64,000 bases of DNA, taken from assembly GCA_946699065.1 (NCBI GenBank), contig CAMPDV010001045.1:62001-126000 (forward strand). The letters run 5' to 3'. This DNA comes from Loxodes magnus. Lineage: Eukaryota; Ciliophora; Karyorelictea; Loxodida; Loxodidae. The position numbers and the translations under genes are program-made. Positions 2,349 through 64,000 of this stretch are shown one piece after another (positions within the stretch are counted from its first letter, which is position 1; the number at the start of each line of letters is the position of its first letter). The notes below the pieces were generated by a model, which saw only the letters and a list, made by a program, of their open reading frames with translations, did not search any database and had not been told where the DNA came from.

Positions 2349-2455
2349 TTAAACTTCACGATACGATGAACTCTGAATCACTGGATATAGCCACAGATCA
2401 TACCTAATTTGTGTGACCACTCATGGTCTTACAGGTACCTGTCTTGACGTCCCAT

Positions 2456-2457
2456 AT
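2456..2457 (-). other. One-base deletion (frameshift), third copy
   Basis: This is the same missing G, 12,299 bp (100 x 123 - 1) from the second copy. TAA follows in the entering frame at 2349-2351. The unit also carries the TGA-for-GGA change in SGS at about 2357, as the other two copies do. Confidence 0.9.
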
Positions 2458-14300: not shown

Positions 14301-14647
14301 CTCTGAATCACTGGATATAGCCACAGATCATACATGACTAGTGTGACCACTCATGGTCTTACAGGTACCTGTCTTGACGTCCCATAGTCTCACCGTATAA
14401 TTTAAACTTCCCGATACGATGAACTCTGAATCACTGGATATAGCCACAGCATATACATAACTAGTGTGACCACTCATGGTCTTACAGGTACCTGTCTTGA
14501 CGTCCCATAGTCTCACCGTATAATTTAAACTTCCCGATACGATGAACTCTGAATCACTGGATATAGCCACAGCAGATACACAACTAGTGTGACCACTCAT
14601 GGTCTTACAGGTACCTGTCTTGACGTCCCATAGTCTCACCGTATAAT

Positions 14648-16860: not shown

Positions 16861-19800
16861 TTAAACTTCACGATACGATGAACTCTGAATCACTGGATAT
16901 AGCCACAGATCATACCTAATTTGTGTGACCACTCATGGTCTTACAGGTACCTGTCTTGACGTCCCATATCTCACCGTATAATCATGACTTCCCGATACGA
17001 TGAACTCTGAATCACTGGATATAGCCACAGATCATACATGACTAGTGTGACCACTCATGGTCTTACAGGTACCTGTCTTGACGTCCCATAGTCTCACCGT
17101 ATAATCTGCACTTCCCGATACGATGAACTCTGAATCACTGGATATAGCCACAGCATATACCTAACCTGTGTGACCACTCATGGTCTTACAGGTACCTGTC
17201 TTGACGTCCCATAGTCTCACCGTATAATCATGACTTCCCGATACGATGAACTCTGAATCACTGGATATAGCCACAGATCATACCTAATTTGTGTGACCAC
17301 TCATGGTCTTACAGGTACCTGTCTTGACGTCCCATAGTCTCACCGTATAATTTAAACTTCCCGATACGATGAACTCTGAATCACTGGATATAGCCACAGC
17401 AGATACATAACTAGTGTGACCACTCATGGTCTTACAGGTACCTGTCTTGACGTCCCATAGTCTCACCGTATAATCTGCACTTCCCGATACGATGAACTAT
17501 AAATCACTGGATATAGCCACAGATCATACATGACTAGTGAGACCACTCATGGTCTTACAGGTACCTGTCTTGACGTCCCATAGTCTCACCGTATAATCAT
17601 GACTTCCCGATACGATGAACTCTGAATCACTGGATATAGCCACAGCATATACCTAACTAGTGTGACCACTCATGGTCTTACAGGTACCTGTCTTGACGTC
17701 CCATAGTCTCACCGTCTAATCATGACTTCCCGATACGATGAACTCTGAATCACTGGATATAGCCACAGATCATACAGAACTAGTGTGACCACTCATGGTC
17801 TTACAGGTACCTGTCTTGACGTCCCATAGTCTCACCGTATAATTTAAACTTCCCGATACGATGAACTCTGAATCACTGGATATAGCCACAGCAGATACAC
17901 AACTAGTGTGACCACTCATGGTCTTACAGGTACCTGTCTTGACGTCCCATAGTCTCACCGTATAATCTGCACTTCCCGATACGATGAACTCTGAATCACT
18001 GGATATAGCCACAGATCATACATGACTAGTGTGACCACTCATGGTCTTACAGGTACCTGTCTTGACGTCCCATAGTCTCACCGTATAATTTAAACTTCCC
18101 GATACGATGAACTCTGAATCACTGGATATAGCCACAGCATATACATAACTAGTGTGACCACTCATGGTCTTACAGGTACCTGTCTTGACGTCCCATAGTC
18201 TCACCGTATAATTTAAACTTCCCGATACGATGAACTCTGAATCACTGGATATAGCCACAGCAGATACACAACTAGTGTGACCACTCATGGTCTTACAGGT
18301 ACCTGTCTTGACGTCCCATAGTCTCACCGTATAATCTGCACTTCCCGATACGATGAACTCTGAATCACTGGATATAGCCACAGATCATACATGACTAGTG
18401 TGACCACTCATGGTCTTACAGGTACCTGTCTTGACGTCCCATAGTCTCACCGTATAATCATGACTTCCCGATACGATGAACTCTGAATCACTGGATATAG
18501 CCACAGATCATACATGACTAGTGTGACCACTCATGGTCTTACAGGTACCTGTCTTGACGTCCCATAGTCTCACCGTATAATCTGCACTTCCCGATACGAT
18601 GAACTCTGAATCACTGGATATAGCCACAGCATATACATAACTAGTGTGACCACTCATGGTCTTACAGGTACCTGTCTTGACGTCCCATAGTCTCACCGTA
18701 TTATCATGACTTCCCGATACGATGAACTCTGAATCACTGGATATAGCCACAGCATATACCTAACTAGTGTGACCACTCATGGTCTTACAGGTACCTGTCT
18801 TGACGTCCCATAGTCTCACCGTATAATCTGCACTTCCCGATACGATGAACTCTGAATCACTGGATATAGCCACAGCAGATACATAACTAGTGTGACCACT
18901 CATGGTCTTACAGGTACCTGTCTTGACGTCCCATAGTCTCATCGTATAATCTGCACTTCCCGATACGATGAACTCTGAATCACTGGATATAGCCACAGCA
19001 TATACCTAACCTGTGTGACCACTCATGGTCTTACAGGTACCTGTCTTGACGTCCCATAGTCTCACCGTATAATCTGCACTTCCCGATACGATGAACTCTG
19101 AATCACTGGATATAGCCACAGCAGATACATAACTAGTGTGACCACTCATGGTCTTACAGGTACCTGTCTTGACGTCCCATAGTCTCACCGTATAATCTGC
19201 ACTTCCCGATACGATGAACTCTGAATCACTGGATATAGCCACAGATCATACATGACTAGTGTGACCACTCATGGTCTTACAGGTACCTGTCTTGACGTCC
19301 CATAGTCTCACCGTATAATCTGCACTTCCCGATACGATGAACTCTGAATCACTGGATATAGCCACAGATCATACACAACTAGTGTGACCACTCATGGTCT
19401 TACAGGTACCTGTCTTGACGTCCCATAGTCTCACCGTCTAATCTGCACTTCCCGATACGATGAACTCTGAATCACTGGATATAGCCACAGCATATACATA
19501 ACTAGTGTGACCACTCATGGTCTTACAGGTACCTGTCTTGACGTCCCATAGTCTCACCGTATAATCTGCACTTCCCGATACGATGAACTCTGAATCACTG
19601 GATATAGCCACAGCAGATACATAACTAGTGTGACCACTCATGGTCTTACAGGTACCTGTCTTGACGTCCCATAGTCTCACCGTATAATCTGCACTTCCCG
19701 ATACGATGAACTCTGAATCACTGGATATAGCCACAGCATATACCTAATTTGTGTGACCACTCATGGTCTTACAGGTACCTGTCTTGACGTCCCATAGTCT

Positions 19801-22800
19801 CACCGTATAATCATGACTTCCCGATACGATGAACTCTGAATCACTGGATATAGCCACAGATCATACATAACTAGTGTGACCACTCATGGTCTTACAGGTA
19901 CCTGTCTTGACGTCCCATAGTCTCATCGTATAATCTGCACTTCCCGATACGATGAACTCTGAATCACTGGATATAGCCACAGCATATACCTAACCTGTGT
20001 GACCACTCATGGTCTTACAGGTACCTGTCTTGACGTCCCATAGTCTCACCGTATAATCATGACTTCCCGATACGATGAACTCTGAATCACTGGATATAGC
20101 CACAGCATATACCTAACCTGTGTGACCACTCATGGTCTTACAGGTACCTGTCTTGACGTCCCATAGTCTCACCGTATAATCTGCACTTCCCGATACGATG
20201 AACTCTGAATCACTGGATATAGCCACAGATCATACATGACTAGTGTGACCACTCATGGTCTTACAGGTACCTGTCTTGACGTCCCATAGTCTCATCGTAT
20301 AATCTGCACTTCCCGATACGATGAACTCTGAATCACTGGATATAGCCACAGCAAATACCTAACCTGTGTGACCACTCATGGTCTTACAGGTACCTGTCTT
20401 GACGTCCCATAGTCTCACCGTATAATCATGACTTCCCGATACGATGAACTCTGAATCACTGGATATAGCCACAGCATATACATAACTAGTGTGACCACTC
20501 ATGGTCTTACAGGTACCTGTCTTGACGTCCCATAGTCTCACCGTATAATCTGCACTTCCCGATACGATGAACTCTGAATCACTGGATATAGCCACAGATC
20601 ATACATGACTAGTGTGACCACTCATGGTCTTACAGGTACCTGTCTTGACGTCCCATAGTCTCACCGTATAATTTAAACTTCCCGATACGATGAACTCTGA
20701 ATCACTGGATATAGCCACAGCATATACATAACTAGTGTGACCACTCATGGTCTTACAGGTACCTGTCTTGACGTCCCATAGTCTCACCGTATAATCTGCA
20801 CTTCCCGATACGATGAACTCTGAATCACTGGATATAGCCACAGATCATACATGACTAGTGTGACCACTCATGGTCTTACAGGTACCTGTCTTGACGTCCC
20901 ATAGTCTCACCGTATAATTTAAACTTCCCGATACGATGAACTCTGAATCACTGGATATAGCCACAGCATATACCTAACTAGTGTGACCACTCATGGTCTT
21001 ACAGGTACCTGTCTTGACGTCCCATAGTCTCACCGTATAATCATGACTTCCCGATACGATGAACTCTGAATCACTGGATATAGCCACAGATCATACATAA
21101 CTAGTGTGACCACTCATGGTCTTACAGGTACCTGTCTTGACGTCCCATAGTCTCACCGTATAATCTGCACTTCCCGATACGATGAACTCTGAATCACTGG
21201 ATATAGCCACAGCATATACATAACTAGTGTGACCACTCATGGTCTTACAGGTACCTGTCTTGACGTCACATAGTCTCACCGTATAATCTGCACTTCCCGA
21301 TACGATGAACTCTGAATCACTGGATATAGCCACAGATCATACATGACTAGTGTGACCACTCATGGTCTTACAGGTACCTGTCTTGACGTCCCATAGTCTC
21401 ATCGTATAATCTGCACTTCCCGATACGATGAACTCTGAATCACTGGATATAGCCACAGATCATACATGACTAGTGTGACCACTCATGGTCTTACAGGTAC
21501 CTGTCTTGACGTCCCATAGTCTCACCTTCTTATCGACACTTCCCGATACGATGAACTCTGAATCACTGGATATAGCCACAGATCATACATGACTAGTGTG
21601 ACCACTCATGGTCTTACAGGTACCTGTCTTGACGTCCCATAGTCTCATCGTATAATCTGCACTTCCCGATACGATGAACTCTGAATCACTGGATATAGCC
21701 ACAGATCATACATGACTAGTGTGACCACTCATGGTCTTACAGGTACCTGTCTTGACGTCCCATAGTCTCACCTTCTTATCGACACTTCCCGATACGATGA
21801 ACTCTGAATCACTGGATATAGCCACAGATCATACATGACTAGTGTGACCACTCATGGTCTTACAGGTACCTGTCTTGACGTCCCATAGTCTCATCGTATA
21901 ATCTGCACTTCCCGATACGATGAACTCTGAATCACTGGATATAGCCACAGCATATACCTAATTTGTGTGACCACTCATGGTCTTACAGGTACCTGTCTTG
22001 ACGTCCCATAGTCTCACCGTCTAATCATGACTTCCCGATACGATGAACTCTGTATCACAGGATATAGCCACAGCAAATACCTAACCTGTGTGACCACTCA
22101 TGGTCTTACAGGTACCTGTCTTGACGTCCCATAGTCTCACCGTATAATCTGCACTTCCCGATACGATGAACTCTGAATCACTGGATATAGCCACAGCATA
22201 TACCTAACCTGTGTGACCACTCATGGTCTTACAGGTACCTGTCTTGACGTCCCATAGTCTCACCGTATAATCTGCACTTCCCGATACGATGAACTCTGAA
22301 TCACTGGATATAGCCACAGATCATACATGACTAGTGTGACCACTCATGGTCTTACAGGTACCTGTCTTGACGTCCCATAGTCTCACCGTATAATTTAAAC
22401 TTCCCGATACGATGAACTCTGAATCACTGGATATAGCCACAGCATATACCTAACCTGTGTGACCACTCATGGTCTTACAGGTACCTGTCTTGACGTCCCA
22501 TAGTCTCACCGTATAATCATAACTTCCCGATACGATGAACTCTGAATCACTGGATATAGCCACAGATAATACACAACTAGTGTGACCACTCATGGTCTTA
22601 CAGGTACCTGTCTTGACGTCCCATAGTCTCACCGTATAATCATGACTTCCCGATACGATGAACTCTGAATCACTGGATATAGCCACAGATCATACCTAAT
22701 TTGTGTGACCACTCATGGTCTTACAGGTACCTGTCTTGACGTCCCATAGTCTCACCGTATAATCATGACTTCCCGATACGATGAACTCTGAATCACTGGA

Positions 22801-25800
22801 TATAGCCACAGCATATACATAACTAGTGTGACCACTCATGGTCTTACAGGTACCTGTCTTGACGTCCCATAGTCTCACCGTATAATCATGACTTCCCGAT
22901 ACGATGAACTCTGAATCACTGGATATAGACACAGATCATACATGACTAGTGTGACCACTCATGGTCTTACAGGTACCTGTCTTGACGTCCCATAGTCTCA
23001 TCGTATAATCTGCACTTCCCGATACGATGAACTCTGAATCACTGGATATAGCCACAGCATATACATAACTAGTGTGACCACTCATGGTCTTACAGGTACC
23101 TGTCTTGACGTCCCATAGTCTCACCGTCTAATCATGACTTCCCGATACGATGAACTCTGAATCACTGGATATAGCCACAGATCATACATGACTAGTGTGA
23201 CCACTCATGGTCTTACAGGTACCTGTCTTGACGTCCCATAGTCTCACCGTATAATCTGCACTTCCCGATACGATGAACTCTGAATCACTGGATATAGCCA
23301 CAGCAGATACATAACTAGTGTGACCACTCATGGTCTTACAGGTACCTGTCTTGACGTCCCATAGTCTCACCGTATAATCTGCACTTCCCGATACGATGAA
23401 CTCTGAATCACTGGATATAGCCACAGCATATACATAACTAGTGTGACCACTCATGGTCTTACAGGTACCTGTCTTGACGTCCCATAGTCTCACCGTATAA
23501 TCATGACTTCCCGATACGATGAACTCTGAATCACTGGATATAGCCACAGCAGATACACAACTAGTGTGACCACTCATGGTCTTACAGGTACCTGTCTTGA
23601 CGTCCCATAGTCTCATCGTATAATCTGCACTTCCCGATACGATGAACTCTGAATCACTGGATATAGCCACAGATCATACATGACTAGTGTGACCACTCAT
23701 GGTCTTACAGGTACCTGTCTTGACGTCCCATAGTCTCACCGTATAATCATGACTTCCCGATACGATGAACTCTGAATCACTGGATATAGCCACAGATCAT
23801 ACATGACTAGTGTGACCACTCATGGTCTTACAGGTACCTGTCTTGACGTCCCATAGTCTCACCGTATAATCATGACTTCCCGATACGATGAACTCTGAAT
23901 CACTGGATATAGCCACAGATCATACAGAACTAGTGTGACCACTCATGGTCTTACAGGTACCTGTCTTGAAGTCCCATAGTCTCACCGTATAATCATGACT
24001 TCCCGATACGATGAACTCTGAATCACTGGATATAGCCACAGCAAATACCTAACCTGTGTGACCACTCCTGGTCTTACAGGTACCTGTCTTGACGTCACAT
24101 AGTCTCACCGTATAATCTGCACTTCCCGATACGATGAACTCTGAATCACTGGATATAGCCACAGATCATACCTGACTAGTGTGACCACTCATGGTCTTAC
24201 AGGTACCTGTCTTGACGTCCCATAGTCTCATCGTATAATCTGCACTTCCCGATACGATGAACTCTGAATCACTGGATATAGCCACAGATCATACATGACT
24301 AGTGTGACCACTCATGGTCTTACAGGTACCTGTCTTGACGTCCCATAGTCTCACCGTATAATCTGCACTTCCCGATACGATGAACTCTGAATCACTGGAT
24401 ATAGCCACAGATCATACATGACTAGTGTGACCACTCATGGTCTTACAGGTACCTGTCTTGACGTCCCATAGTCTCATCGTATAATCTGCACTTCCCGATA
24501 CGATGAACTCTGAATCACTGGATATAGCCACAGCAAATACCTAACCTGTGTGACCACTCATGGTCTTACAGGTACCTGTCTTGACGTCCCATAGTCTCAC
24601 CTTCTTATCGACACTTCCCGATACGATGAACTCTGAATCACTGGATATAGCCACAGATCATACATGACTAGTGTGACCACTCATGGTCTTACAGGTACCT
24701 GTCTTGACGTCCCATAGTCTCACCGTATAATCTGCACTTCCCGATACGATGAACTCTGAATCACTGGATATAGCCACAGCATATACATAACTAGTGTGAC
24801 CACTCATGGTCTTACAGGTACCTGTCTTGACGTCCCATAGTCTCACCGTATTATCATGACTTCCCGATACGATGAACTCTGAATCACTGGATATAGCCAC
24901 AGCAGATACACAACTAGTGTGACCACTCATGGTCTTACAGGTACCTGTCTTGACGTCCCATAGTCTCACCGTATAATCTGCACTTCCCGATACGATGAAC
25001 TCTGAATCACTGGATATAGCCACAGATCATACATGACTAGTGTGACCACTCATGGTCTTACAGGTACCTGTCTTGACGTCCCATAGTCTCATCGTATAAT
25101 CTGCACTTCCCGATACGATGAACTCTGAATCACTGGATATAGCCACAGAGAATACATAATCTGTGTGACCACTCATGGTCTTACAGGTACCTGTCTTGAC
25201 GTCCCATAGTCTCACCGTATAATCTGCACTTCCCGATACGATGAACTCTGAATCACTGGATATAGCCACAGCAGATACATAACTAGTGTGACCACTCATG
25301 GTCTTACAGGTACCTGTCTTGACGTCCCATAGTCTCACCGTATAATCTGCACTTCCCGATACGATGAACTCTGAATCACTGGATATAGCCACAGATCATA
25401 CCTAATTTGTGTGACCACTCATGGTCTTACAGGTACCTGTCTTGACGTCCCATAGTCTCACCGTATAATCATGACTTCCCGATACGATGAACTCTGAATC
25501 ACTGGATATAGCCACAGATCATACCTAATTTGTGTGACCACTCATGGTCTTACAGGTACCTGTCTTGACGTCCCATAGTCTCACCTTCTTATCGACACTT
25601 CCCGATACGATGAACTCTGAATCACTGGATATAGCCACAGATCATACCTAATTTGTGTGACCACTCATGGTCTTACAGGTACCTGTCTTGACGTCCCATA
25701 GTCTCACCGTATAATCATGACTTCCCGATACGATGAACTCTGAATCACTGGATATAGCCACAGATCATACCTAATTTGTGTGACCACTCATGGTCTTACA

Positions 25801-28800
25801 GGTACCTGTCTTGACGTCCCATAGTCTCACCGTATAATCATGACTTCCCGATACGATGAACTCTGAATCACTGGATATAGCCACAGATCATACATAACTA
25901 GTGTGACCACTCATGGTCTTACAGGTACCTGTCTTGACGTCCCATAGTCTCACCTTCTTATCGACACTTCCCGATACGATGAACTCTGAATCGCTGGATA
26001 TAGCCACAGCATATACCTAACCTGTGTGACCACTCATGGTCTTACAGGTACCTGTCTTGACGTCCCATAGTCTCATCGTATAATCTGCACTTCCCGATAC
26101 GATGAACTCTGAATCACTGGATATAGCCACAGATCATACCTAATTTGTGTGACCACTCATGGTCTTACAGGTACCTGTCTTGACGTCCCATAGTCTCACC
26201 TTCTTATCGACACTTCCCGATACGATGAACTCTGAATCACTGGATATAGCCACAGCATATACCTAACTAGTGTGACCACTCATGGTCTTACAGGTACCTG
26301 TCTTGACGTCCCATAGTCTCACCGTATAATCATGACTTCCCGATACGATGAACTCTGAATCACTGGATATAGCCACAGATCATACATAACTAGTGTGACC
26401 ACTCATGGTCTTACAGGTACCTGTCTTGACGTCCCATAGTCTCACCGTATAATCTGCACTTCCCGATACGATGAACTCTGAATCACTGGATATAGCCTCA
26501 GCATATACCTAACTAGTGTGACCACTCATGGTCTTACAGGTACCTGTCTTGACGTCCCATAGTCTCATCGTATAATCTGCACTTCCCGATACGATGAACT
26601 CTGAATCACTGGATATAGCCTCAGCAAATACCTAACATGTGTGACCACTCATGGTCTTACAGGTACCTGTCTTGACGTCCCATAGTCTCACCGTATAATC
26701 ATGACTTCCCGATACGATGAACTCTGAATCACTGGATATAGCCACAGCAAATACCTAACCTGTGTGACCACTCATGGTCTTACAGGTACCTGTCTTGACG
26801 TCCCATAGTCTCACCGTATAATCTGCACTTCCCGATACGATGAACTCTGAATCACTGGATATAGCCACAGCATATACCTAACTAGTGTGACCACTCATGG
26901 TCTTACAGGTACCTGTCTTGACGTCCCATAGTCTCATCGTATAATCTGCACTTCCCGATACGATGAACTCTGAATCACTGGATATAGCCTCAGCAAATAC
27001 CTAACATGTGTGACCACTCATGGTCTTACAGGTACCTGTCTTGACGTCCCATAGTCTCACCGTATAATCATGACTTCCCGATACGATGAACTCTGAATCA
27101 CTGGATATAGCCACAGCAAATACCTAACCTGTGTGACCACTCATGGTCTTACAGGTACCTGTCTTGACGTCCCATAGTCTCACCGTATAATCATGACTTC
27201 CCGATACGATGAACTCTGAATCACTGGATATAGCCACAGCAGATACACAACTAGTGTGACCACTCATGGTCTTACAGGTACCTGTCTTGACGTCCCATAG
27301 TCTCACCGTATAATCTGCACTTCCCGATACGATGAACTCTGAATCACTGGATATAGCCACAGATCATACCTAATTTGTGTGACCACTCATGGTCTTACAG
27401 GTACCTGTCTTGACGTCCCATAGTCTCACCGTATAATCATGACTTCCCGATACGATGAACTCTGAATCACTGGATATAGCCACAGCAAATACCTAACCTG
27501 TGTGACCACTCATGGTCTTACAGGTACCTGTCTTGACGTCCCATAGTCTCACCGTATAATCATGACTTCCCGATACGATGAACTCTGAATCACTGGATAT
27601 AGCCACAGCAGATACACAACTAGTGTGACCACTCATGGTCTTACAGGTACCTGTCTTGACGTCCCATAGTCTCACCGTATAATCTGCACTTCCCGATACG
27701 ATGAACTCTGAATCACTGGATATAGCCACAGATCATACATGACTAGTGTGACCACTCATGGTCTTACAGGTACCTGTCTTGACGTCCCATAGTCTCACCG
27801 TATTATCATGACTTCCCGATACGATGAACTCTGAATCACTGGATATAGCCACAGCATATACATAACTAGTGTGACCACTCATGGTCTTACAGGTACCTGT
27901 CTTGACGTCCCATAGTCTCACCGTATAATCATGACTTCCCGATACGATGAACTCTGAATCACTGGATATAGCCACAGCAAATACCTAACCTGTGTGACCA
28001 CTCATGGTCTTACAGGTACCTGTCTTGACGTCCCATAGTCTCACCTTCTTATCGACACTTCCCGATACGATGAACTCTGAATCACTGGATATAGCCACAG
28101 ATCATACATGACTAGTGTGACCACTCATGGTCTTACAGGTACCTGTCTTGACGTCCCATAGTCTCATCGTATAATCTGCACTTCCCGATACGATGAACTC
28201 TGAATCACTGGATATAGCCACAGCATATACCTAATTTGTGTGACCACTCATGGTCTTACAGGTACCTGTCTTGACGTCCCATAGTCTCACCGTCTAATCA
28301 TGACTTCCCGATACGATGAACTCTGTATCACAGGATATAGCCACAGCAAATACCTAACCTGTGTGACCACTCATGGTCTTACAGGTACCTGTCTTGACGT
28401 CCCATAGTCTCACCTTCTTATCGACACTTCCCGATACGATGAACTCTGAATCACTGGATATAGCCACAGCATATACACAACTAGTGTGACCACTCATGGT
28501 CTTACAGGTACCTGTCTTGACGTCCCATAGTCTCACCGTCTAATCATGACTTCCCGATACGATGAACTCTGAATCACTGGATATAGCCACAGATCATACA
28601 TGACTAGTGTGACCACTCATGGTCTTACAGGTACCTGTCTTGACGTCCCATAGTCTCACCGTATAATCATGACTTCCCGATACGATGAACTCTGAATCAC
28701 TGGATATAGCCACAGATCATACCTAATTTGTGTGACCACTCATGGTCTTACAGGTACCTGTCTTGACGTCCCATAGTCTCACCGTATAATCATGACTTCC

Positions 28801-49800: not shown

Positions 49801-52800
49801 GTCCCATAGTCTCACCGTATAATCTGCACTTCCCGATACGATGAACTCTGAATCACTGGATATAGCCACAGATCATACATGACTAGTGTGACCACTCATG
49901 GTCTTACAGGTACCTGTCTTGACGTCCCATAGTCTCACCGTATAATCTGCACTTCCCGATACGATGAACTCTGAATCACTGGATATAGCCACAGCATATA
50001 CATAACTAGTGTGACCACTCATGGTCTTACAGGTACCTGTCTTGACGTCCCATAGTCTCACCGTATTATCATGACTTCCCGATACGATGAACTCTGAATC
50101 ACTGGATATAGCCACAGCATATACCTAACCTGTGTGACCACTCATGGTCTTACAGGTACCTGTCTTGACGTCCCATAGTCTCATCGTATAATCTGCACTT
50201 CCCGATACGATGAACTCTGAATCACTGGATATAGCCACAGCATATACCTAACCTGTGTGACCACTCATGGTCTTACAGGTACCTGTCTTGACGTCCCATA
50301 GTCTCATCGTATAATCTGCACTTCCCGATACGATGAACTCTGAATCACTGGATATAGCCACAGCATATACACAACTAGTGTGACCACTCATGGTCTTACA
50401 GGTACCTGTCTTGACGTCCCATAGTCTCACCGTATAATCTGCACTTCCCGATACGATGAACTCTGAATCACTGGATATAGCCACAGCAGATACATAACTA
50501 GTGTGACCACTCATGGTCTTACAGGTACCTGTCTTGACGTCCCATAGTCTCACCTTCTTATCGACACTTCCCGATACGATGAACTCTGAATCACTGGATA
50601 TAGCCACAGATCATACCTAATTTGTGTGACCACTCATGGTCTTACAGGTACCTGTCTTGACGTCCCATAGTCTCACCGTATAATCATGACTTCCCGATAC
50701 GATGAACTCTGAATCACTGGATATAGCCACAGATCATACCTAATTTGTGTGACCACTCATGGTCTTACAGGTACCTGTCTTGACGTCCCATAGTCTCACC
50801 GTATAATCATGACTTCCCGATACGATGAACTCTGAATCACTGGATATAGCCACAGATCATACCTAATTTGTGTGACCACTCATGGTCTTACAGGTACCTG
50901 TCTTGACGTCCCATAGTCTCACCGTCTAATCATGACTTCCCGATACGATGAACTCTGAATCACTGGATATAGCCACAGATCATACATGACTAGTGTGACC
51001 ACTCATGGTCTTACAGGTACCTGTCTTGACGTCCCATAGTCTCATCGTATAATCTGCACTTCCCGATACGATGAACTCTGAATCACTGGATATAGCCACA
51101 GCAAATACCTAACCTGTGTGACCACTCATGGTCTTACAGGTACCTGTCTTGACGTCCCATAGTCTCACCGTCTAATCATGACTTCCCGATACGATGAACT
51201 CTGAATCACTGGATATAGCCACAGATCATACATGACTAGTGTGACCACTCATGGTCTTACAGGTACCTGTCTTGACGTCCCATAGTCTCACCGTCTAATC
51301 ATGACTTCCCGATACGATGAACTCTGAATCACTGGATATAGCCACAGCATATACACAACTAGTGTGACCACTCATGGTCTTACAGGTACCTGTCTTGACG
51401 TCCCATAGTCTCACCGTATAATCATGACTTCCCGATACGATGAACTCTGAATCACTGGATATAGCCACAGCAAATACCTAACCTGTGTGACCACTCATGG
51501 TCTTACAGGTACCTGTCTTGACGTCCCATAGTCTCACCGTCTAATCATGACTTCCCGATACGATGAACTCTGAATCACTGGATATAGCCACAGATCATAC
51601 ATGACTAGTGTGACCACTCATGGTCTTACAGGTACCTGTCTTGACGTCCCATAGTCTCACCGTCTAATCATGACTTCCCGATACGATGAACTCTGAATCA
51701 CTGGATATAGCCACAGCATATACATAACTAGTGTGACCACTCATGGTCTTACAGGTACCTGTCTTGACGTCCCATAGTCTCACCGTATAATCTGCACTTC
51801 CCGATACGATGAACTCTGAATCACTGGATATAGCCACAGATCATACATGACTAGTGTGACCACTCATGGTCTTACAGGTACCTGTCTTGACGTCCCATAG
51901 TCTCACCGTATAATCATGACTTCCCGATACGATGAACTCTGAATCACTGGATATAGCCACAGATAATACATAATCTGTGTGACCACTCATGGTCTTACAG
52001 GTACCTGTCTTGACGTCCCATAGTCTCACCGTATAATCATGACTTCCCGATACGATGAACTCTGAATCACTGGATATAGCCACAGATCATACCTAATTTG
52101 TGTGACCACTCATGGTCTTACAGGTACCTGTCTTGACGTCCCATAGTCTCACCGTATAATCATGACTTCCCGATACGATGAACTCTGAATCACTGGATAT
52201 AGCCACAGATCATACATGACTAGTGTGACCACTCATGGTCTTACAGGTACCTGTCTTGACGTCCCATAGTCTCACCGTATTATCATGACTTCCCGATACG
52301 ATGAACTCTGAATCACTGGATATAGCCACAGCATATACCTAACTAGTGTGACCACTCATGGTCTTACAGGTACCTGTCTTGACGTCCCATAGTCTCATCG
52401 TATAATCTGCACTTCCCGATACGATGAACTCTGAATCACTGGATATAGCCACAGCAAATACCTAACCTGTGTGACCACTCATGGTCTTACAGGTACCTGT
52501 CTTGACGTCCCATAGTCTCACCGTATAATCTGCACTTCCCGATACGATGAACTCTGAATCACTGGATATAGCCACAGATCATACATGACTAGTGTGACCA
52601 CTCATGGTCTTACAGGTACCTGTCTTGACGTCCCATAGTCTCACCGTATAATCATGACTTCCCGATACGATGAACTCTGAATCACTGGATATAGCCACAG
52701 CAAATACCTAACCTGTGTGACCACTCATGGTCTTACAGGTACCTGTCTTGACGTCCCATAGTCTCACCTTCTTATCGACACTTCCCGATACGATGAACTC

Positions 52801-55800
52801 TGAATCACTGGATATAGCCACAGCAGATACATAGTGTGTGTGACCACTCATGGTCTTACAGGTACCTGTCTTGACGTCCCATAGTCTCACCGTATAATCT
52901 GCACTTCCCGATACGATGAACTCTGAATCACTGGATATAGCCACAGATCATACATGACTAGTGTGACCACTCATGGTCTTACAGGTACCTGTCTTGACGT
53001 CCCATAGTCTCACCGTATTATCATGACTTCCCGATACGATGAACTCTGAATCACTGGATATAGCCACAGCATATACATAACTAGTGTGACCACTCATGGT
53101 CTTACAGGTACCTGTCTTGACGTCCCATAGTCTCACCGTATAATCATGACTTCCCGATACGATGAACTCTGAATCACTGGATATAGCCACAGCAGATACA
53201 TAACTAGTGTGACCACTCATGGTCTTACAGGTACCTGTCTTGACGTCCCATAGTCTCACCTTCTTATCGACACTTCCCGATACGATGAACTCTGAATCAC
53301 TGGATATAGCCACAGATCATACATGACTAGTGTGACCACTCATGGTCTTACAGGTACCTGTCTTGACGTCCCATAGTCTCACCGTATAATCTGCACTTCC
53401 CGATACGATGAACTCTGAATCACTGGATATAGCCACAGCATATACATAACTAGTGTGACCACTCATGGTCTTACAGGTACCTGTCTTGACGTCCCATAGT
53501 CTCACCGTATAATCATGACTTCCCGATACGATGAACTCTGAATCACTGGATATAGCCACAGCAGATACATAACTAGTGTGACCACTCATGGTCTTACAGG
53601 TACCTGTCTTGACGTCCCATAGTCTCACCTTCTTATCGACACTTCCCGATACGATGAACTCTGAATCACTGGATATAGCCACAGATCATACATAATCTGT
53701 GTGACCACTCATGGTCTTACAGGTACCTGTCTTGACGTCCCATAGTCTCACCGTATAATCTGCACTTCCCGATACGATGAACTCTGAATCACTGGATATA
53801 GCCACAGCATATACATAACTAGTGTGACCACTCATGGTCTTACAGGTACCTGTCTTGACGTCCCATAGTCTCACCGTATAATCTGCACTTCCCGATACGA
53901 TGAACTCTGAATCACTGGATATAGCCACAGATCATACATGACTAGTGTGACCACTCATGGTCTTACAGGTACCTGTCTTGACGTCCCATAGTCTCACCGT
54001 ATAATCATGACTTCCCGATACGATGAACTCTGAATCACTGGATATAGCCACAGAGAATACATAATCTGTGTGACCACTCATGGTCTTACAGGTACCTGTC
54101 TTGACGTCCCATAGTCTCACCGTATAATCTGCACTTCCCGATACGATGAACTCTGTATCACTGGATATAGCCACAGCAAATACCTAACCTGTGTGACCAC
54201 TCATGGTCTTACAGGTACCTGTCTTGACGTCCCATAGTCTCACCTTCTTATCGACACTTCCCGATACGATGAACTCTGAATCACTGGATATAGCCACAGA
54301 TCATACATGACTAGTGTGACCACTCATGGTCTTACAGGTACCTGTCTTGACGTCCCATAGTCTCACCGTATAATCTGCACTTTCCGATACGATGAACTCT
54401 GAATCACTGGATATAGCCACAGATCATACATGACTAGTGTGACCACTCATGGTCTTACAGGTACCTGTCTTGACGTCCCATAGTCTCACCGTATAATCTG
54501 CACTTCCCGATACGATGAACTCTGAATCACTGGATATAGCCACAGCATATACATAACTAGTGTGACCACTCATGGTCTTACAGGTACCTGTCTTGACGTC
54601 CCATAGTCTCACCGTCTAATCATGACTTCCCGATACGATGAACTCTGAATCACTGGATATAGCCACAGCATATACATAACTAGTGTGACCACTCATGGTC
54701 TTACAGGTACCTGTCTTGACGTCCCATAGTCTCACCGTATAATCATGACTTCCCGATACGATGAACTCTGAATCACTGGATATAGCCACAGATCATACAT
54801 GACTAGTGTGACCACTCATGGTCTTACAGGTACCTGTCTTGACGTCCCATAGTCTCATCGTATAATCTGCACTTCCCGATACGATGAACTCTGAATCACT
54901 GGATATAGCCACAGCAGATACACAACTAGTGTGACCACTCATGGTCTTACAGGTACCTGTCTTGACGTCCCATAGTCTCACCGTATAATCTGCACTTCCC
55001 GATACGATGAACTCTGAATCACTGGATATAGCCACAGATCATACATGACTAGTGTGACCACTCATGGTCTTACAGGTACCTGTCTTGACGTCCCATAGTC
55101 TCACCGTATAATCATGACTTCCCGATACGATGAACTCTGAATCACTGGATATAGCCACAGATCATACATGACTAGTGTGACCACTCATGGTCTTACAGGT
55201 ACCTGTCTTGACGTCCCATAGTCTCACCGTATAATCTGCACTTCCCGATACGATGAACTCTGTATCACTGGATATAGCCACAGCAAATACCTAACCTGTG
55301 TGACCACTCATGGTCTTACAGGTACCTGTCTTGACGTCCCATAGTCTCACCGTCTAATCATGACTTCCCGATACGATGAACTCTGAATCACTGGATATAG
55401 CCACAGCATATACATAACTAGTGTGACCACTCATGGTCTTACAGGTACCTGTCTTGACGTCCCATAGTCTCACCGTATAATCATGACTTCCCGATACGAT
55501 GAACTCTGAATCACTGGATATAGCCACAGCAAATACCTAACCTGTGTGACCACTCATGGTCTTACAGGTACCTGTCTTGACGTCCCATAGTCTCACCTTC
55601 TTATCGACACTTCCCGATACGATGAACTCTGAATCACTGGATATAGCCACAGATCATACATGACTAGTGTGACCACTCATGGTCTTACAGGTACCTGTCT
55701 TGACGTCCCATAGTCTCACCGTCTAATCATGACTTCCCGATACGATGAACTCTGAATCACTGGATATAGCCACAGCATATACATAACTAGTGTGACCACT

Positions 55801-58800
55801 CATGGTCTTACAGGTACCTGTCTTGACGTCCCATAGTCTCACCTTCTTATCGACACTTCCCGATACGATGAACTCTGAATCACTGGATATAGCCACAGCA
55901 GATACACAACTAGTGTGACCACTCATGGTCTTACAGGTACCTGTCTTGACGTCCCATAGTCTCACCGTATAATCTGCACTTCCCGATACGATGAACTCTG
56001 AATCACTGGATATAGCCACAGATCATACATAATCTGTGTGACCACTCATGGTCTTACAGGTACCTGTCTTGACGTCCCATAGTCTCACCGTATAATCTGC
56101 ACTTCCCGATACGATGAACTCTGAATCACTGGATATAGCCACAGCAGATACATAACTAGTGTGACCACTCATGGTCTTACAGGTACCTGTCTTGACGTCC
56201 CATAGTCTCACCTTCTTATCGACACTTCCCGATACGATGAACTCTGAATCACTGGATATAGCCACAGATCATACCTAATTTGTGTGACCACTCATGGTCT
56301 TACAGGTACCTGTCTTGACGTCCCATAGTCTCATCGTATAATCTGCACTTCCCGATACGATGAACTCTGAATCACTGGATATAGCCACAGCAGATACATA
56401 ACTAGTGTGACCACTCATGGTCTTACAGGTACCTGTCTTGACGTCCCATAGTCTCACCGTATAATCTGCACTTCCCGATACGATGAACTCTGAATCACTG
56501 GATATAGCCACAGCAGATACATAACTAGTGTGACCACTCATGGTCTTACAGGTACCTGTCTTGACGTCCCATAGTCTCACCGTATTATCATGACTTCCCG
56601 ATACGATGAACTCTGAATCACTGGATATAGCCACAGATCATACATGACTAGTGTGACCACTCATGGTCTTACAGGTACCTGTCTTGACGTCCCATAGTCT
56701 CACCGTATTATCATGACTTCCCGATACGATGAACTCTGAATCACTGGATATAGCCACAGATCATACATGACTAGTGAGACCACTCATGGTCTTACAGGTA
56801 CCTGTCTTGACGTCCCATAGTCTCACCGTATAATCATGACTTCCCGATACGATGAACTCTGAATCACTGGATATAGCCACAGCAAATACCTAACCTGTGT
56901 GACCACTCATGGTCTTACAGGTACCTGTCTTGACGTCCCATAGTCTCACCTTCTTATCGACACTTCCCGATACGATGAACTCTGAATCACTGGATATAGC
57001 CACAGATCATACATGACTAGTGTGACCACTCATGGTCTTACAGGTACCTGTCTTGACGTCCCATAGTCTCACCGTATAATCTGCACTTCCCGATACGATG
57101 AACTCTGAATCACTGGATATAGCCACAGAGAATACATAATCTGTGTGACCACTCATGGTCTTACAGGTACCTGTCTTGACGTCCCATAGTCTCACCGTAT
57201 AATCTGCACTTCCCGATACGATGAACTCTGTATCACTGGATATAGCCACAGCATATACATAACTAGTGTGACCACTCATGGTCTTACAGGTACCTGTCTT
57301 GACGTCCCATAGTCTCACCGTCTAATCATGACTTCCCGATACGATGAACTCTGAATCACTGGATATAGCCACAGCAGATACACAACTAGTGTGACCACTC
57401 ATGGTCTTACAGGTACCTGTCTTGACGTCCCATAGTCTCACCGTATAATCTGCACTTCCCGATACGATGAACTCTGAATCACTGGATATAGCCACAGATC
57501 ATACATGACTAGTGTGACCACTCATGGTCTTACAGGTACCTGTCTTGACGTCCCATAGTCTCACCGTATAATCTGCACTTCCCGATACGATGAACTCTGA
57601 ATCACTGGATATAGCCACAGCATATACATAACTAGTGTGACCACTCATGGTCTTACAGGTACCTGTCTTGACGTCCCATAGTCTCACCGTCTAATCATGA
57701 CTTCCCGATACGATGAACTCTGAATCACTGGATATAGCCACAGATCATACATGACTAGTGTGACCACTCATGGTCTTACAGGTACCTGTCTTGACGTCCC
57801 ATAGTCTCACCGTATAATCATGACTTCCCGATACGATGAACTCTGAATCACTGGATATAGCCACAGATAATACATAATCTGTGTGACCACTCATGGTCTT
57901 ACAGGTACCTGTCTTGACGTCCCATAGTCTCACCGTATTATCATGACTTCCCGATACGATGAACTCTGAATCACTGGATATAGCCACAGATCATACCTAA
58001 TTTGTGTGACCACTCATGGTCTTACAGGTACCTGTCTTGACGTCCCATAGTCTCATCGTATAATCTGCACTTCCCGATACGATGAACTCTGAATCACTGG
58101 ATATAGCCACAGCAAATACCTAACCTGTGTGACCACTCATGGTCTTACAGGTACCTGTCTTGACGTCCCATAGTCTCACCGTATAATCATGACTTCCCGA
58201 TACGATGAACTCTGAATCACTGGATATAGCCACAGATCATACATGACTAGTGTGACCACTCATGGTCTTACAGGTACCTGTCTTGACGTCCCATAGTCTC
58301 ACCGTCTAATCATGACTTCCCGATACGATGAACTCTGAATCACTGGATATAGCCACAGCATATACACAACTAGTGTGACCACTCATGGTCTTACAGGTAC
58401 CTGTCTTGACGTCCCATAGTCTCACCGTATAATCTGCACTTCCCGATACGATGAACTCTGAATCACTGGATATAGCCACAGATCATACATGACTAGTGTG
58501 ACCACTCATGGTCTTACAGGTACCTGTCTTGACGTCCCATAGTCTCACCGTATAATCATGACTTCCCGATACGATGAACTCTGAATCACTGGATATAGCC
58601 ACAGCAAATACCTAACCTGTGTGACCACTCATGGTCTTACAGGTACCTGTCTTGACGTCCCATAGTCTCACCTTCTTATCGACACTTCCCGATACGATGA
58701 ACTCTGAATCACTGGATATAGCCACAGCAGATACATAGTGTGTGTGACCACTCATGGTCTTACAGGTACCTGTCTTGACGTCCCATAGTCTCACCGTATA

Positions 58801-61800
58801 ATCTGCACTTCCCGATACGATGAACTCTGAATCACTGGATATAGCCACAGATCATACATGACTAGTGTGACCACTCATGGTCTTACAGGTACCTGTCTTG
58901 ACGTCCCATAGTCTCACCGTATTATCATGACTTCCCGATACGATGAACTCTGAATCACTGGATATAGCCACAGCATATACATAACTAGTGTGACCACTCA
59001 TGGTCTTACAGGTACCTGTCTTGACGTCCCATAGTCTCACCGTATAATCATGACTTCCCGATACGATGAACTCTGAATCACTGGATATAGCCACAGCAGA
59101 TACATAACTAGTGTGACCACTCATGGTCTTACAGGTACCTGTCTTGACGTCCCATAGTCTCACCTTCTTATCGACACTTCCCGATACGATGAACTCTGAA
59201 TCACTGGATATAGCCACAGCAGATACATAGTGTGTGTGACCACTCATGGTCTTACAGGTACCTGTCTTGACGTCCCATAGTCTCACAGTATAATCTGCAC
59301 TTCCCGATACGATGAACTCTGAATCACTGGATATAGCCACAGATCATACATGACTAGTGTGACCACTCATGGTCTTACAGGTACCTGTCTTGACGTCCCA
59401 TAGTCTCACCGTATAATCATGACTTCCCGATACGATGAACTCTGAATCACTGGATATAGCCACAGCAAATACCTAACCTGTGTGACCACTCATGGTCTTA
59501 CAGGTACCTGTCTTGACGTCCCATAGTCTCACCTTCTTATCGACACTTCCCGATACGATGAACTCTGAATCACTGGATATAGCCACAGCAGATACACAAC
59601 TAGTGTGACCACTCATGGTCTTACAGGTACCTGTCTTGACGTCCCATAGTCTCACCGTATAATCATGACTTCCCGATACGATGAACTCTGAATCACTGGA
59701 TATAGCCACAGCATATACATAACTAGTGTGACCACTCATGGTCTTACAGGTACCTGTCTTGACGTCCCATAGTCTCACCGTATAATCATGACTTCCCGAT
59801 ACGATGAACTCTGAATCACTGGATATAGCCACAGCAAATACCTAACCTGTGTGACCACTCATGGTCTTACAGGTACCTGTCTTGACGTCCCATAGTCTCA
59901 CCTTCTTATCGACACTTCCCGATACGATGAACTCTGAATCACTGGATATAGCCACAGCAGATACATAACTAGTGTGACCACTCATGGTCTTACAGGTACC
60001 TGTCTTGACGTCCCATAGTCTCACCGTATAATCATGACTTCCCGATACGATGAACTCTGAATCACTGGATATAGCCACAGATCATACCTAATTTGTGTGA
60101 CCACTCATGGTCTTACAGGTACCTGTCTTGACGTCCCATAGTCTCACCGTATAATCATGACTTCCCGATACGATGAACTCTGAATCACTGGATATAGCCA
60201 CAGCATATACATAACTAGTGTGACCACTCATGGTCTTACAGGTACCTGTCTTGACGTCCCATAGTCTCACCGTATAATCATGACTTCCCGATACGATGAA
60301 CTCTGAATCACTGGATATAGCCACAGATCATACATGACTAGTGTGACCACTCATGGTCTTACAGGTACCTGTCTTGACGTCCCATAGTCTCATCGTATAA
60401 TCTGCACTTCCCGATACGATGAACTCTGAATCACTGGATATAGCCACAGCAGATACATAACTAGTGTGACCACTCATGGTCTTACAGGTACCTGTCTTGA
60501 CGTCCCATAGTCTCACCGTATTATCATGACTTCCCGATACGATGAACTCTGAATCACTGGATATAGCCACAGATCATACATGACTAGTGTGACCACTCAT
60601 GGTCTTACAGGTACCTGTCTTGACGTCCCATAGTCTCACCGTATTATCATGACTTCCCGATACGATGAACTCTGAATCACTGGATATAGCCACAGATCAT
60701 ACATGACTAGTGAGACCACTCATGGTCTTACAGGTACCTGTCTTGACGTCCCATAGTCTCACCGTATAATCATGACTTCCCGATACGATGAACTCTGAAT
60801 CACTGGATATAGCCACAGATCATACATGACTAGTGTGACCACTCATGGTCTTACAGGTACCTGTCTTGACGTCCCATAGTCTCACCTTCTTATCGACACT
60901 TCCCGATACGATGAACTCTGAATCACTGGATATAGCCACAGATCATACATGACTAGTGTGACCACTCATGGTCTTACAGGTACCTGTCTTGACGTCCCAT
61001 AGTCTCATCGTATAATCTGCACTTCCCGATACGATGAACTCTGAATCACTGGATATAGCCACAGCATATACATAACTAGTGTGACCACTCATGGTCTTAC
61101 AGGTACCTGTCTTGACGTCCCATAGTCTCACCGTCTAATCATGACTTCCCGATACGATGAACTCTGAATCACTGGATATAGCCACAGATCATACATGACT
61201 AGTGTGACCACTCATGGTCTTACAGGTACCTGTCTTGACGTCCCATAGTCTCACCGTATTATCATGACTTCCCGATACGATGAACTCTGAATCACTGGAT
61301 ATAGCCACAGATCATACATGACTAGTGAGACCACTCATGGTCTTACAGGTACCTGTCTTGACGTCCCATAGTCTCACCGTATAATCATGACTTCCCGATA
61401 CGATGAACTCTGAATCACTGGATATAGCCACAGCAAATACCTAACCTGTGTGACCACTCATGGTCTTACAGGTACCTGTCTTGACGTCCCATAGTCTCAC
61501 CTTCTTATCGACACTTCCCGATACGATGAACTCTGAATCACTGGATATAGCCACAGCAGATACACAACTAGTGTGACCACTCATGGTCTTACAGGTACCT
61601 GTCTTGACGTCCCATAGTCTCACCGTATAATCTGCACTTCCCGATACGATGAACTCTGAATCACTGGATATAGCCACAGATCATACATGACTAGTGTGAC
61701 CACTCATGGTCTTACAGGTACCTGTCTTGACGTCCCATAGTCTCACCGTATAATTTAAACTTCCCGATACGATGAACTCTGAATCACTGGATATAGCCAC

Positions 61801-64000
61801 AGCATATACATAACTAGTGTGACCACTCATGGTCTTACAGGTACCTGTCTTGACGTCCCATAGTCTCACCGTATAATCATGACTTCCCGATACGATGAAC
61901 TCTGAATCACTGGATATAGCCACAGCAAATACCTAACCTGTGTGACCACTCATGGTCTTACAGGTACCTGTCTTGACGTCCCATAGTCTCATCGTATAAT
62001 CTGCACTTCCCGATACGATGAACTCTGAATCACTGGATATAGCCACAGCAAATACCTAACCTGTGTGACCACTCATGGTCTTACAGGTACCTGTCTTGAC
62101 GTCCCATAGTCTCACCGTATAATCATGACTTCCCGATACGATGAACTCTGAATCACTGGATATAGCCACAGATCATACATGACTAGTGTGACCACTCATG
62201 GTCTTACAGGTACCTGTCTTGACGTCCCATAGTCTCACCGTCTAATCATGACTTCCCGATACGATGAACTCTGAATCACTGGATATAGCCACAGCATATA
62301 CACAACTAGTGTGACCACTCATGGTCTTACAGGTACCTGTCTTGACGTCCCATAGTCTCACCGTATAATCTGCACTTCCCGATACGATGAACTCTGAATC
62401 ACTGGATATAGCCACAGATCATACATGACTAGTGTGACCACTCATGGTCTTACAGGTACCTGTCTTGACGTCCCATAGTCTCACCGTATAATTTAAACTT
62501 CCCGATACGATGAACTCTGAATCACTGGATATAGCCACAGCATATACATAACCTGTGTGACCACTCATGGTCTTACAGGTACCTGTCTTGACGTCCCATA
62601 GTCTCACCGTATAATCTGCACTTCCCGATACGATGAACTCTGAATCACTGGATATAGCCACAGATCATACATGACTAGTGTGACCACTCATGGTCTTACA
62701 GGTACCTGTCTTGACGTCCCATAGTCTCACCGTCTAATCATGACTTCCCGATACGATGAACTCTGAATCACTGGATATAGCCACAGATCATACCTAACCT
62801 GTGTGACCACTCATGGTCTTACAGGTACCTGTCTTGACGTCCCATAGTCTCACCGTATAATCTGCACTTCCCGATACGATGAACTCTGAATCACTGGATA
62901 TAGCCACAGCAAATACCTAACCTGTGTGACCACTCATGGTCTTACAGGTACCTGTCTTGACGTCCCATAGTCTCACCGTCTAATCATGACTTCCCGATAC
63001 GATGAACTCTGAATCACTGGATATAGCCACAGATCATACATGACTAGTGAGACCACTCATGGTCTTACAGGTACCTGTCTTGACGTCCCATAGTCTCACC
63101 GTCTAATCATGACTTCCCGATACGATGAACTCTGAATCACTGGATATAGCCACAGCAGATACATAACTAGTGTGACCACTCATGGTCTTACAGGTACCTG
63201 TCTTGACGTCCCATAGTCTCACCGTCTAATCATGACTTCCCGATACGATGAACTCTGAATCACTGGATATAGCCACAGCATATACATAACTAGTGTGACC
63301 ACTCATGGTCTTACAGGTACCTGTCTTGACGTCCCATAGTCTCACCTTCTTATCGACACTTCCCGATACGATGAACTCTGAATCACTGGATATAGCCACA
63401 GCAGATACACAACTAGTGTGACCACTCATGGTCTTACAGGTACCTGTCTTGACGTCCCATAGTCTCACCGTATAATCTGCACTTCCCGATACGATGAACT
63501 CTGAATCACTGGATATAGCCACAGCATATACATAACTAGTGTGACCACTCATGGTCTTACAGGTACCTGTCTTGACGTCCCATAGTCTCACCGTATTATC
63601 ATGACTTCCCGATACGATGAACTCTGAATCACTGGATATAGCCACAGATCATACATGACTAGTGTGACCACTCATGGTCTTACAGGTACCTGTCTTGACG
63701 TCCCATAGTCTCACCGTATTATCATGACTTCCCGATACGATGAACTCTGAATCACTGGATATAGCCACAGATCATACATGACTAGTGAGACCACTCATGG
63801 TCTTACAGGTACCTGTCTTGACGTCCCATAGTCTCACCGTATAATCATGACTTCCCGATACGATGAACTCTGAATCACTGGATATAGCCACAGCAAATAC
63901 CTAACCTGTGTGACCACTCATGGTCTTACAGGTACCTGTCTTGACGTCCCATAGTCTCACCGTATAATTTAAACTTCCCGATACGATGAACTCTGAATCA
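16861..64000 (-). CDS. Giant WD40-repeat protein, 5' incomplete, read with TGA/TAG as sense
   Basis: From 63999 down to 16969 one frame holds about 382 consecutive WD40 units (15,677 codons) with no indel and no TAA that I could find. It is open only if TGA and TAG are sense codons. TGA occurs in the motif V-x-SVAIS, where WD40 proteins typically have Trp. TAG occurs in GHT(S/G/N)-x-V and in S(H/A)D-x-TV, where Gln, Glu, Lys or Asn are typical. A one-base deletion at 16968/16969 then shifts the frame, and TAA follows 36 codons later at 16861-16863, giving at least 15,700 residues. No start is visible; the many ATG and GTG codons are internal to repeats. There is no signal peptide, membrane segment or other domain, so only a protein-binding scaffold role can be inferred from the family. 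Alternatives: a standard-code pseudogene or coding-derived satellite. WD40 identity is certain; expression as one protein is not. Confidence 0.55.
16968..16969 (-). other. One-base deletion (frameshift), first in reading order
   Basis: The plus strand reads cccatatctc where every ordinary unit has cccatagtctc, so one G is missing in the RLWD codons. The new frame runs through the rest of the unit and meets TAA at 16861-16863, inside the next SLN turn. The site is not a homopolymer. It is the first break met when reading the gene from 64000 downward. Confidence 0.9.
22700..29190. repeat. Dispersed duplicate, copy 1 (offset 19,434 bp)
   Basis: The order of units matches 42,134-48,624 at a constant offset of 19,434 bp (158 units). 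Shared rare variants prove common origin: Ala to Ser (tatagacac) at about 22929/42363, the WD Trp to Cys change at 24097/43531, Met to Arg (actcctggt) nearby, and the tatagcctcag variants near 26500/45930. Confidence 0.9.
24172..24174 (-). other. Only CAG (Gln) codon noticed at the TAG position
   Basis: The cassette reads S-CAG-V-TGA-S, where other units have CAT, TAT, TGT or TAG before the Val. The duplicate at 43606-43608 has CAT. Gln is therefore tolerated at the position that TAG often occupies. Confidence 0.8.
27330..37320. repeat. Tandem duplication of 4,920 bp (40 WD40 units)
   Basis: Roughly 27,330-32,249 is repeated as 32,250-37,169, and the match runs on to about 37,320. The order of cassettes is the same unit by unit at an offset of 4,920 bp. 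Only a few differences were noticed: a cassette at 28470 against 33390, 30070 against 34990, D+1 codons near 31612/36532 and 31735/36655, and a single base near 35480. Boundaries are good to about one unit. Confidence 0.9.
30061..31044 (-). other. Example stretch: in-frame stop codons confined to cassette 1
   Basis: I counted eight consecutive units here. Cassette 1 reads, in plus-strand order: N-TAG-V-TGA-S, G-TAG-VFA, SHV-TGA-S, SYVYA, G-TAG-VYA, G-TAG-VYA, DYVFS and SYVSA. That is six in-frame stop codons in eight units, all at two of the 41 codon positions and none in the framework. Cassette 2 in these units has Y, N or K rather than TAG. The stretch shows how dense and how regular the stop codons are. 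Confidence 0.9.
36680..39600. repeat. Dispersed duplicate, copy 1 (offset 14,883 bp)
   Basis: About 24 units here recur in the same order at 51,563-54,483 at an offset of 14,883 bp (121 units). Both copies include the HYV cassette near 37950/52830 and the DYVFS cassette near 39170/54050. Confidence 0.88.
38450..42000. repeat. Tandem duplication of 1,722 bp (14 WD40 units)
   Basis: About 38,450-40,171 is repeated as about 40,172-41,893, and the copy then matches on to near 42,000. Shared markers include the blade with ttccgatac at 39500/41222 and the SDDKT turn with DTEF at 39975/41697. Fourteen units equals two seven-blade propellers. Two base differences were noticed at the junctions (N for Y at about 42007). 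Confidence 0.88.
42134..48624. repeat. Dispersed duplicate, copy 2 (offset 19,434 bp)
   Basis: This is the partner of 22,700-29,190. Near 47903 it carries a cassette that differs from copy 1 (28470) but matches the second tandem copy at 33390. This points to later exchange or to a different parent for that part. From about 48,960 to 50,350 the match to the 29.4-30.8 kb region continues at an offset of 19,557 bp, one unit longer. Confidence 0.88.
51563..54483. repeat. Dispersed duplicate, copy 2 (offset 14,883 bp)
   Basis: This is the partner of 36,680-39,600. A sub-block of it (about 52,500-53,300) appears again at about 58,400-59,200, 5,904 bp (48 units) further on. Confidence 0.87.
58400..59200. 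repeat. Third copy of the 52.5-53.3 kb block
   Basis: The cassette order matches 52,500-53,300 at an offset of 5,904 bp. The copies diverge on the high-coordinate side, where this one carries a second HYV cassette at about 59220. Confidence 0.8.

Follow-up and report, generated by a model that had tools for sequence, protein, structure and literature searches.

Does a stretch of DNA made of WD40 repeats, and interspersed throughout with TAG and TGA, belong to a gene or to satellite DNA, and what do these two codons mean in it? The question is raised by a contig of Loxodes magnus, a karyorelict ciliate whose macronuclear assembly is reported to span 706 Mbp, of which 231 Mbp are low-complexity tandem repeats (PMC11441545). 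The stretch analysed here, 64,000 nucleotides in full length, is called the window; coordinates preceded by a contig label (C1045 for the contig that holds the window) are those of the contig.

A WD40 array in a single frame

The minus strand of the window is entirely a WD40 array, in which 520 cores were counted in head-to-tail units (Table 1). The array monomer is one WD40 repeat of 123 bp, or 41 codons. With TAG and TGA masked as X, 860 amino acids translated from positions 18000-20580 matched the Pfam family WD40 (PF00400) in 20 stretches with 676.6 bits, for a cut-off of 27. A sequence-only reading of this DNA had described one indel-free frame over 47 kb with stops at almost only three codon positions, and both descriptions were borne out by our counts. 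All 381 whole units of positions 16969-64000 are exactly 123 bp long, with zero indels in a single frame, and 322 of the 323 stop-type codons in that frame fall at codons 17, 19, and 37. They comprise TGA at codon 19, after GHTxxV (n = 166), and TAG at codon 17, before that Val (n = 123), at codon 37, after the turn Asp (n = 33), and once at codon 28; the count of TAA is zero. The boundary that had been placed at 16969 is not the start of the array and marks only the first 1-bp deletion.

Table 1 Features of the window, in window coordinates
Feature	Position	Strand	Basis or remark
WD40 array (probable satellite), 123-bp units	1..64000	minus	520 cores; Pfam PF00400
381 indel-free units with 323 in-frame TAG/TGA	16969..64000	minus	unit and codon counts
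122-bp unit with 1-bp deletion (unit type 106), breaks the frame	16967..17088	minus	unit lengths
122-bp deletion unit, identical copy of type 106	14754..14875	minus	unit comparison
122-bp deletion unit, identical copy of type 106	2455..2576	minus	unit comparison
Longest standard-code open stretch, 285 aa, of TAG/TGA-free WD40 units	41509..42366	minus	query for relatives

On the contig, the array occupies the stretch between about 36.2 kb and the end of the contig (143.4 kb) and contains 870 units, of which 864 are 123 bp, four are 122 bp, and two are 124 bp long. Three of the 122-bp units lie in the window. Both 124-bp units are less than 1.3 kb from the contig end and could be assembly errors. 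At its 3' end the array breaks off inside a unit and gives way to AT-rich DNA, and its 5' end lies beyond the contig. After the array end, at about 36.2 kb on the minus strand, 19 bases of the form GT...TAG match the length of Loxodes introns (on average 19.3 bp; PMC11441545), which may be due to chance. The array units have a GC content of about 45%, compared with 25-29% in their surroundings, both in the window and at C1045:25460-25829; GC-biased conversion in recombining arrays would fit this, as would a foreign origin of the WD40 unit. Within the window, neither an Rfam family at the gathering threshold nor a tRNA was detected, and a 35-base core of the array had no exact match in viral_contigs. 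A reverse-transcriptase-like stretch noticed by eye beside the array yielded no family when three frames were searched against Pfam.

The meaning of TAG and TGA had been argued in the sequence-only reading from the likeness to textbook WD40 repeats. This argument is weak for the array, given that the profile scores do not separate Trp from Arg and Tyr, or Gln from Glu and Lys. The PF00400 score was 694.6 bits with TAG read as Gln and TGA as Trp; it was 696.1, 698.3, 690.0, and 687.2 bits with TGA read as Arg, Tyr, Ser, and Cys, and 694.8, 694.6, 690.2, and 677.8 bits with TAG read as Glu, Lys, Tyr, and Leu, respectively. As these scores favour neither Trp nor Gln, the residues are named by genes and not by the array. 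In bacterial relatives that use the standard code (nine loci), the commonest residue was Trp where codon 19 would fall (12 of 39) and Gln where codon 37 would fall (11 of 56), and the position of codon 17 held Trp in 14, Arg in 6, and Gln in 5 of 39 cases; these residues fit a Trp/Gln reading, which is not proof. Across the genome, the codon-19 motif was found in 70,049 exact copies with TGA and in six with TGG. This excess reflects homogenisation and by itself says nothing on the meaning of TGA.

The genetic code in genes outside the array

In the genome, 135 of 136 scored protein-kinase domains contained in-frame TAA, TAG, or TGA. All 150 scored ubiquitin domains (1,235 candidates) contained TAA or TAG and none contained TGA. 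Ubiquitin domains also occurred in tandem arrays of up to 56 kb with a period of about 1,060 bp, partly 228 bp (C32:1232544-1288873, C537:70502-103307, C930, C2553, and C1577). For scoring of the code, 30 of the 136 kinase domains were aligned, and each codon was scored by the residues of the other sequences in its column; one of 68 TAG codons was left out as it fell in a thin alignment column. Trp was by far the best residue for TGA (n = 21; +59.5 nats, next Phe with -9.3), and Gln was best for both TAA (n = 117; +23.5 nats, next Lys with +1.3) and TAG (n = 67; +29.4 nats, next Lys with +5.9). In one conserved Trp column of the kinases, TGG was used 22 times, TGA seven times, and TAT once.

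The eRF1 gene has 437 codons including the stop, with 13 TAA and 7 TAG in frame. Its sole TGA is the last codon and, in this one conserved gene, lies near the expected C terminus. When the in-frame codons were masked as X and compared with the solved chain 4d5n_A, 9 of the 20 masked codons aligned to Gln, and the other 11 to S (3), K (2), V (2), E (2), A (1), and T (1). A check of the eRF1 motifs, which had been proposed earlier, showed that the Gln of the GGQ motif is among those nine, and the TASNIKS region reads RA-TAA-NIKS. Two copies of the eRF1 gene were located 35 kb apart at C196:20499 and C196:55399, with 1,247 of 1,311 bases equal in an ungapped comparison, and a third, shorter match was located on C2. 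Conserved genes free of in-frame TAG and TGA had been named as the case that would speak against a reassigned code; the kinase domains and eRF1, which carry such codons, did not refute it.

A tRNA-Trp pattern that accepted CCA or UCA with one mismatch matched 132 times; the 100 matches listed lie on three contigs and all have CCA. The corresponding UCA pattern with zero mismatches had no match in the genome. Outside the anticodon, 98 of these 100 CCA matches, when read through, would satisfy the same strictness. A tRNA-Gln-like pattern matched 372 times (six times for the reversed control), and among six matches read, the anticodon was TTA in five and TTG in one. Matches of the tRNA-Trp-like and tRNA-Gln-like patterns were seen in tandem arrays repeating approximately every 187, 241, and 588 bp (C67:482300-491368, C148:157318-168721, and C130:557647-566467). 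Loxodes has been cited as having a tRNA-Trp(CCA) with a 4-bp anticodon stem and as being without tRNA-Trp(UCA) (PMC13092985).

Our analyses support a genome that reads TGA as Trp and both TAG and TAA as Gln. The earlier proposal of Trp for TGA and of Gln or Glu for TAG is thus upheld, with Trp and Gln as the best residues in the 30 kinase domains, and with eRF1 and an 827-codon WD40 frame described below in agreement. Among the codes that had been offered, the karyorelict one is matched by the kinases and eRF1, with TAA as Gln in addition. This is NCBI table 27, the code given for Loxodes (PMC11441545), and it is already known (PMC11441545, PMC4967479), so our result is a confirmation of a known case. 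The likeness to the karyorelict code of Loxodes and Parduczia covers Gln for TAA and TAG, Trp for TGA within genes, TGA as the last codon of eRF1, and a tRNA-Trp with CCA (no UCA being found here with one pattern), and no difference was found. TGA makes up 1.06% of the codons in the array units compared with 0.120% in Parduczia (PMC4967479), an excess which is an effect of the repeat.

Copy number, variation, and a gene with identical units

The assembly comprises 705,730,643 bases in 7,843 contigs. In it, the 35-base core was found with up to three mismatches 217,468 + 271,100 = 488,568 times, with zero matches for a reversed-pattern control. At 123 bp per copy this amounts to 60.1 Mb, or 8.5% of the assembly; the count is that of the assembly, whose tandem repeats are suspected by its authors to be misassembled (PMC11441545). 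The matches occurred on both strands, and the 100 listed were on contigs C2 to C6. An initial WD40 domain screen yielded 98,839 candidates, and 150 of these were scored. That the copy number is mostly an assembly artefact, with modest arrays inflated by misjoined repeats, seems unlikely to us. The authors of the assembly do regard misassembly of low-complexity repeats as a likely cause of the size difference between MIC and MAC (PMC11441545). However, the C1045 array is no copied block, as its longest exact repeated run has 24 units (none has 30) and 70 of its 169 unit types occur once. Exact repeats of at least 10 units hold 288 of 873 C1045 units.

Codon variation was tallied contig-wide in 867 units of 123 bp, three of which belong to a gene near 25.5 kb; the 122- and 124-bp units were left out. 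These units contain 781 TAG/TGA, at codons 19 (n = 366), 17 (n = 276), 37 (n = 95), 28 (n = 33), 33 (n = 6), and 35 (n = 5). Residue entropy peaks at codons 17, 35, 19, 16, 37, and 20. Codons 17, 19, 35, and 37 hold 742 of the 781 TAG/TGA and display 89 residue combinations, and pairwise comparison between distinct units gave 0.711 nonsynonymous and 0.003 synonymous differences per codon at these four. The 35 codons other than 16, 17, 19, 20, 35, and 37 gave 0.043 and 0.014, respectively. Four of the six stop-bearing codons thus coincide with codons 17, 19, 35, and 37, with P of about 0.00015 over 41 codons and P of 0.021 among the 13 codons that are one step from a stop. TAG and TGA would be found at these variable positions simply as the usual codons for the Gln and Trp variants. 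At 31 codons, with the ten variable codons (15-17, 19, 20, and 35-39) omitted, the 24 rare variant types consisted of 23 nonsynonymous and one synonymous, the neutral expectation from the observed spectrum being 82% nonsynonymous. The rare variants of the C1045 array show no sign of purifying selection. Changes from G to T on the coding strand are frequent among them (9 of 24), for which damage or strand-biased mutation is possible.

A second array family, on C1503, has a unit of 126 bp or 42 codons, and its core occurs 6,047 times in the genome. It varies at the matching codons 18, 20, 36, and 38, and also at 12, 13, 15, and 16. In the 126 units kept of 127 there are 130 TGA and zero TAA or TAG, and arrays of this type include stretches of up to 2,899 codons that are open under the standard code. 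At C1503:11252-14368, the 126-bp array ends in V-TGA-N-F-TGA followed by AT-rich DNA, which resembles the 3' end of a gene. Arrays of both families often lay close to a contig end with their coding strand directed outward, as at both ends of C9 (1.96 Mb; 4186-27988, minus, and 1913950, plus) and presumably at C38:62 (minus), C4:2225728-2262976 (plus), C6:1908545 (plus), and C5:7866 (minus); exceptions are C1045 itself and C2:231961 (minus), which is within a 2.8-Mb contig. Such arrays could be subtelomeric. The authors of the assembly reported that telomeres were not found (PMC11441545).

About 10 kb past the 3' end of the array, the minus strand of C1045:27458-24975 contains an intact frame of 827 codons from ATG to TGA. 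The frame includes 50 TAA, 15 TAG, and 5 internal TGA, two of the latter at the Trp of the WD signature (IRI-W-NI and FRR-W-NI) and three at codon 19. Pfam matched pentapeptide repeats (E 8.9e-9) and WD40 in six stretches (220.9 bits; 208.4 when masked). Weak matches (E 0.4 and 0.5) hint at a RING finger in the initial part of the frame, and the middle is Gln-rich. In the first 496 residues, Pfam found pentapeptide repeats and no NTPase domain. About seven blades were recognised by eye, namely one blade that has diverged in its first part, four full units of the satellite type, and two diverged blades. Each of the four units is identical to array units at 123 of 123 bases, with 6, 1, 4, and 8 exact copies in the array, and the identity starts and stops inside blades. 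The GC content is 0.46 and 0.44 in the two 300-base bins over this block and 0.25-0.34 in the other bins. This is the one gene with satellite-type units that was found. It shows that the array unit occurs in a gene-like frame that needs the table 27 code. The identity, which does not give the direction, shows that gene and array have exchanged sequence or share a recent origin.

Satellite DNA or gene

Taken together, we consider it probable that the window is satellite DNA which was amplified from, and has recently been exchanging sequence with, WD40 genes in the karyorelict code. The array shares with tandem satellite DNA its long, homogenised head-to-tail structure, its presence on both strands, and a frame-breaking unit that occurs in copies. 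The copying of this unit is indicated by the single type with a 1-bp deletion that is present three times; overall, frame loss involves two deletion types and 4 units of 870. Unlike usual satellite DNA, the monomer is a recognisable protein repeat, the variation follows codons, and identical units are found in a gene. We infer that the monomer would derive from WD40 genes like the pentapeptide-WD40 frame, in which selection may have diversified the surface codons 17, 19, 35, and 37, as it has in the NACHT-WD40 genes of fungi. Unequal exchange would then have amplified inner blades to several hundred thousand copies, which may still be exchanging sequence with genes, while the long arrays would by now evolve as satellite DNA, largely free of coding constraint. 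With TAA and TAG as Gln and TGA as Trp except near the mRNA 3' end, a code without a dedicated stop would leave such arrays open whether they are translated or not.

The proposed diversification has a counterpart in Podospora, where codons 7, 9, 25, and 27 of NACHT-WD40 units are under diversifying selection around the conserved codons 8 and 26 (PMC1805685) and lie on the interaction face (PMC1805685, PMC2873952). Like the NWD/HNWD genes of Podospora anserina, the array consists of near-identical WD40 units whose variation is concentrated in two codon pairs, one around a conserved V and one around a conserved D; the changes are nearly all nonsynonymous in both, and units are common to several places. 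V18 and D36 of the array have the same spacing as Podospora codons 8 and 26, and the variable pairs coincide, in a register set by spacing and the conserved V and D, with no alignment. The scale differs, with 69 units in a ten-gene family in Podospora (PMC1805685) compared with several hundred thousand copies and an array of more than 100 kb here. The domain structure differs as well, as the gene on C1045 has pentapeptide repeats before its WD40 blades and no NACHT was seen in it.

A further reading gives the satellite a function. It would be a working reservoir: through gene conversion or unequal exchange, expressed seven-bladed WD40 proteins, for example proteins that act in self/non-self or mating recognition, would obtain new blades from it. 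This reading is raised by the gene with four array-identical blades next to diverged ones, as such a supply would leave, and we regard it as a doubtful possibility. If true, hundreds of thousands of diversified WD40 recognition units would be held ready at the scale of a genome compartment.

Alternatively, the array could be part of one or many living giant genes, with a table 27 frame of tens of thousands of codons encoding very long WD40 proteins. The zero indels over 381 units and the absence of TAA from the frame are in its favour, as are the occurrence of in-frame units in the intact 827-codon gene, which shares contig and strand with the array, and the 126-bp family, with its standard-code open stretches of up to 2,899 codons and one array with a gene-like end. 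Nevertheless, the sense reading of TAG and TGA does not make the array a gene, because its core occurs about 488,600 times and so many units cannot all be genes. The frame-breaking unit present three times and the rare variants without a sign of purifying selection also speak against giant genes, and the 3' end of the array is cut inside a unit, whereas the nearby gene ends in diverged blades. We therefore think this very improbable. Decay of a pseudogene under the standard code, in which TAG and TGA would be true stops of a few origins multiplied by homogenisation, deserves next to no credence and is already refuted for the genome as a whole: the stops do occupy only six codon positions, 13 consensus codons are one substitution from a stop, and the earlier argument that decay would scatter stops is weak since homogenisation can copy few events many times, but in-frame stops pervade the scored kinase and ubiquitin domains, the kinase columns name Trp and Gln, and eRF1 contains many TAA and TAG codons.

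The code is not new; the unexpected part is a WD40 motif that makes up about one-twelfth of a genome assembly. Our literature search found nothing that joins WD40 and Loxodes, or that describes WD40 repeats as satellite DNA; it covered main texts, and supplements may describe the satellite. In the accessible text of the assembly report, the 231 Mbp of L. magnus tandem repeats appear only as low-complexity sequence (PMC11441545). WD40 gene totals from such genomes must exclude satellites. The 827-codon gene is the best lead to the origin of the satellite or to what the satellite feeds. A protein repeat with receptor-like variation can become a main component of a nuclear genome, here about 60 Mb out of 706 Mb, with identical units in a gene, which bears on the origins of satellites, on what a code without a dedicated stop permits, given that any array stays open in it, and on how WD40 recognition surfaces could be renewed.
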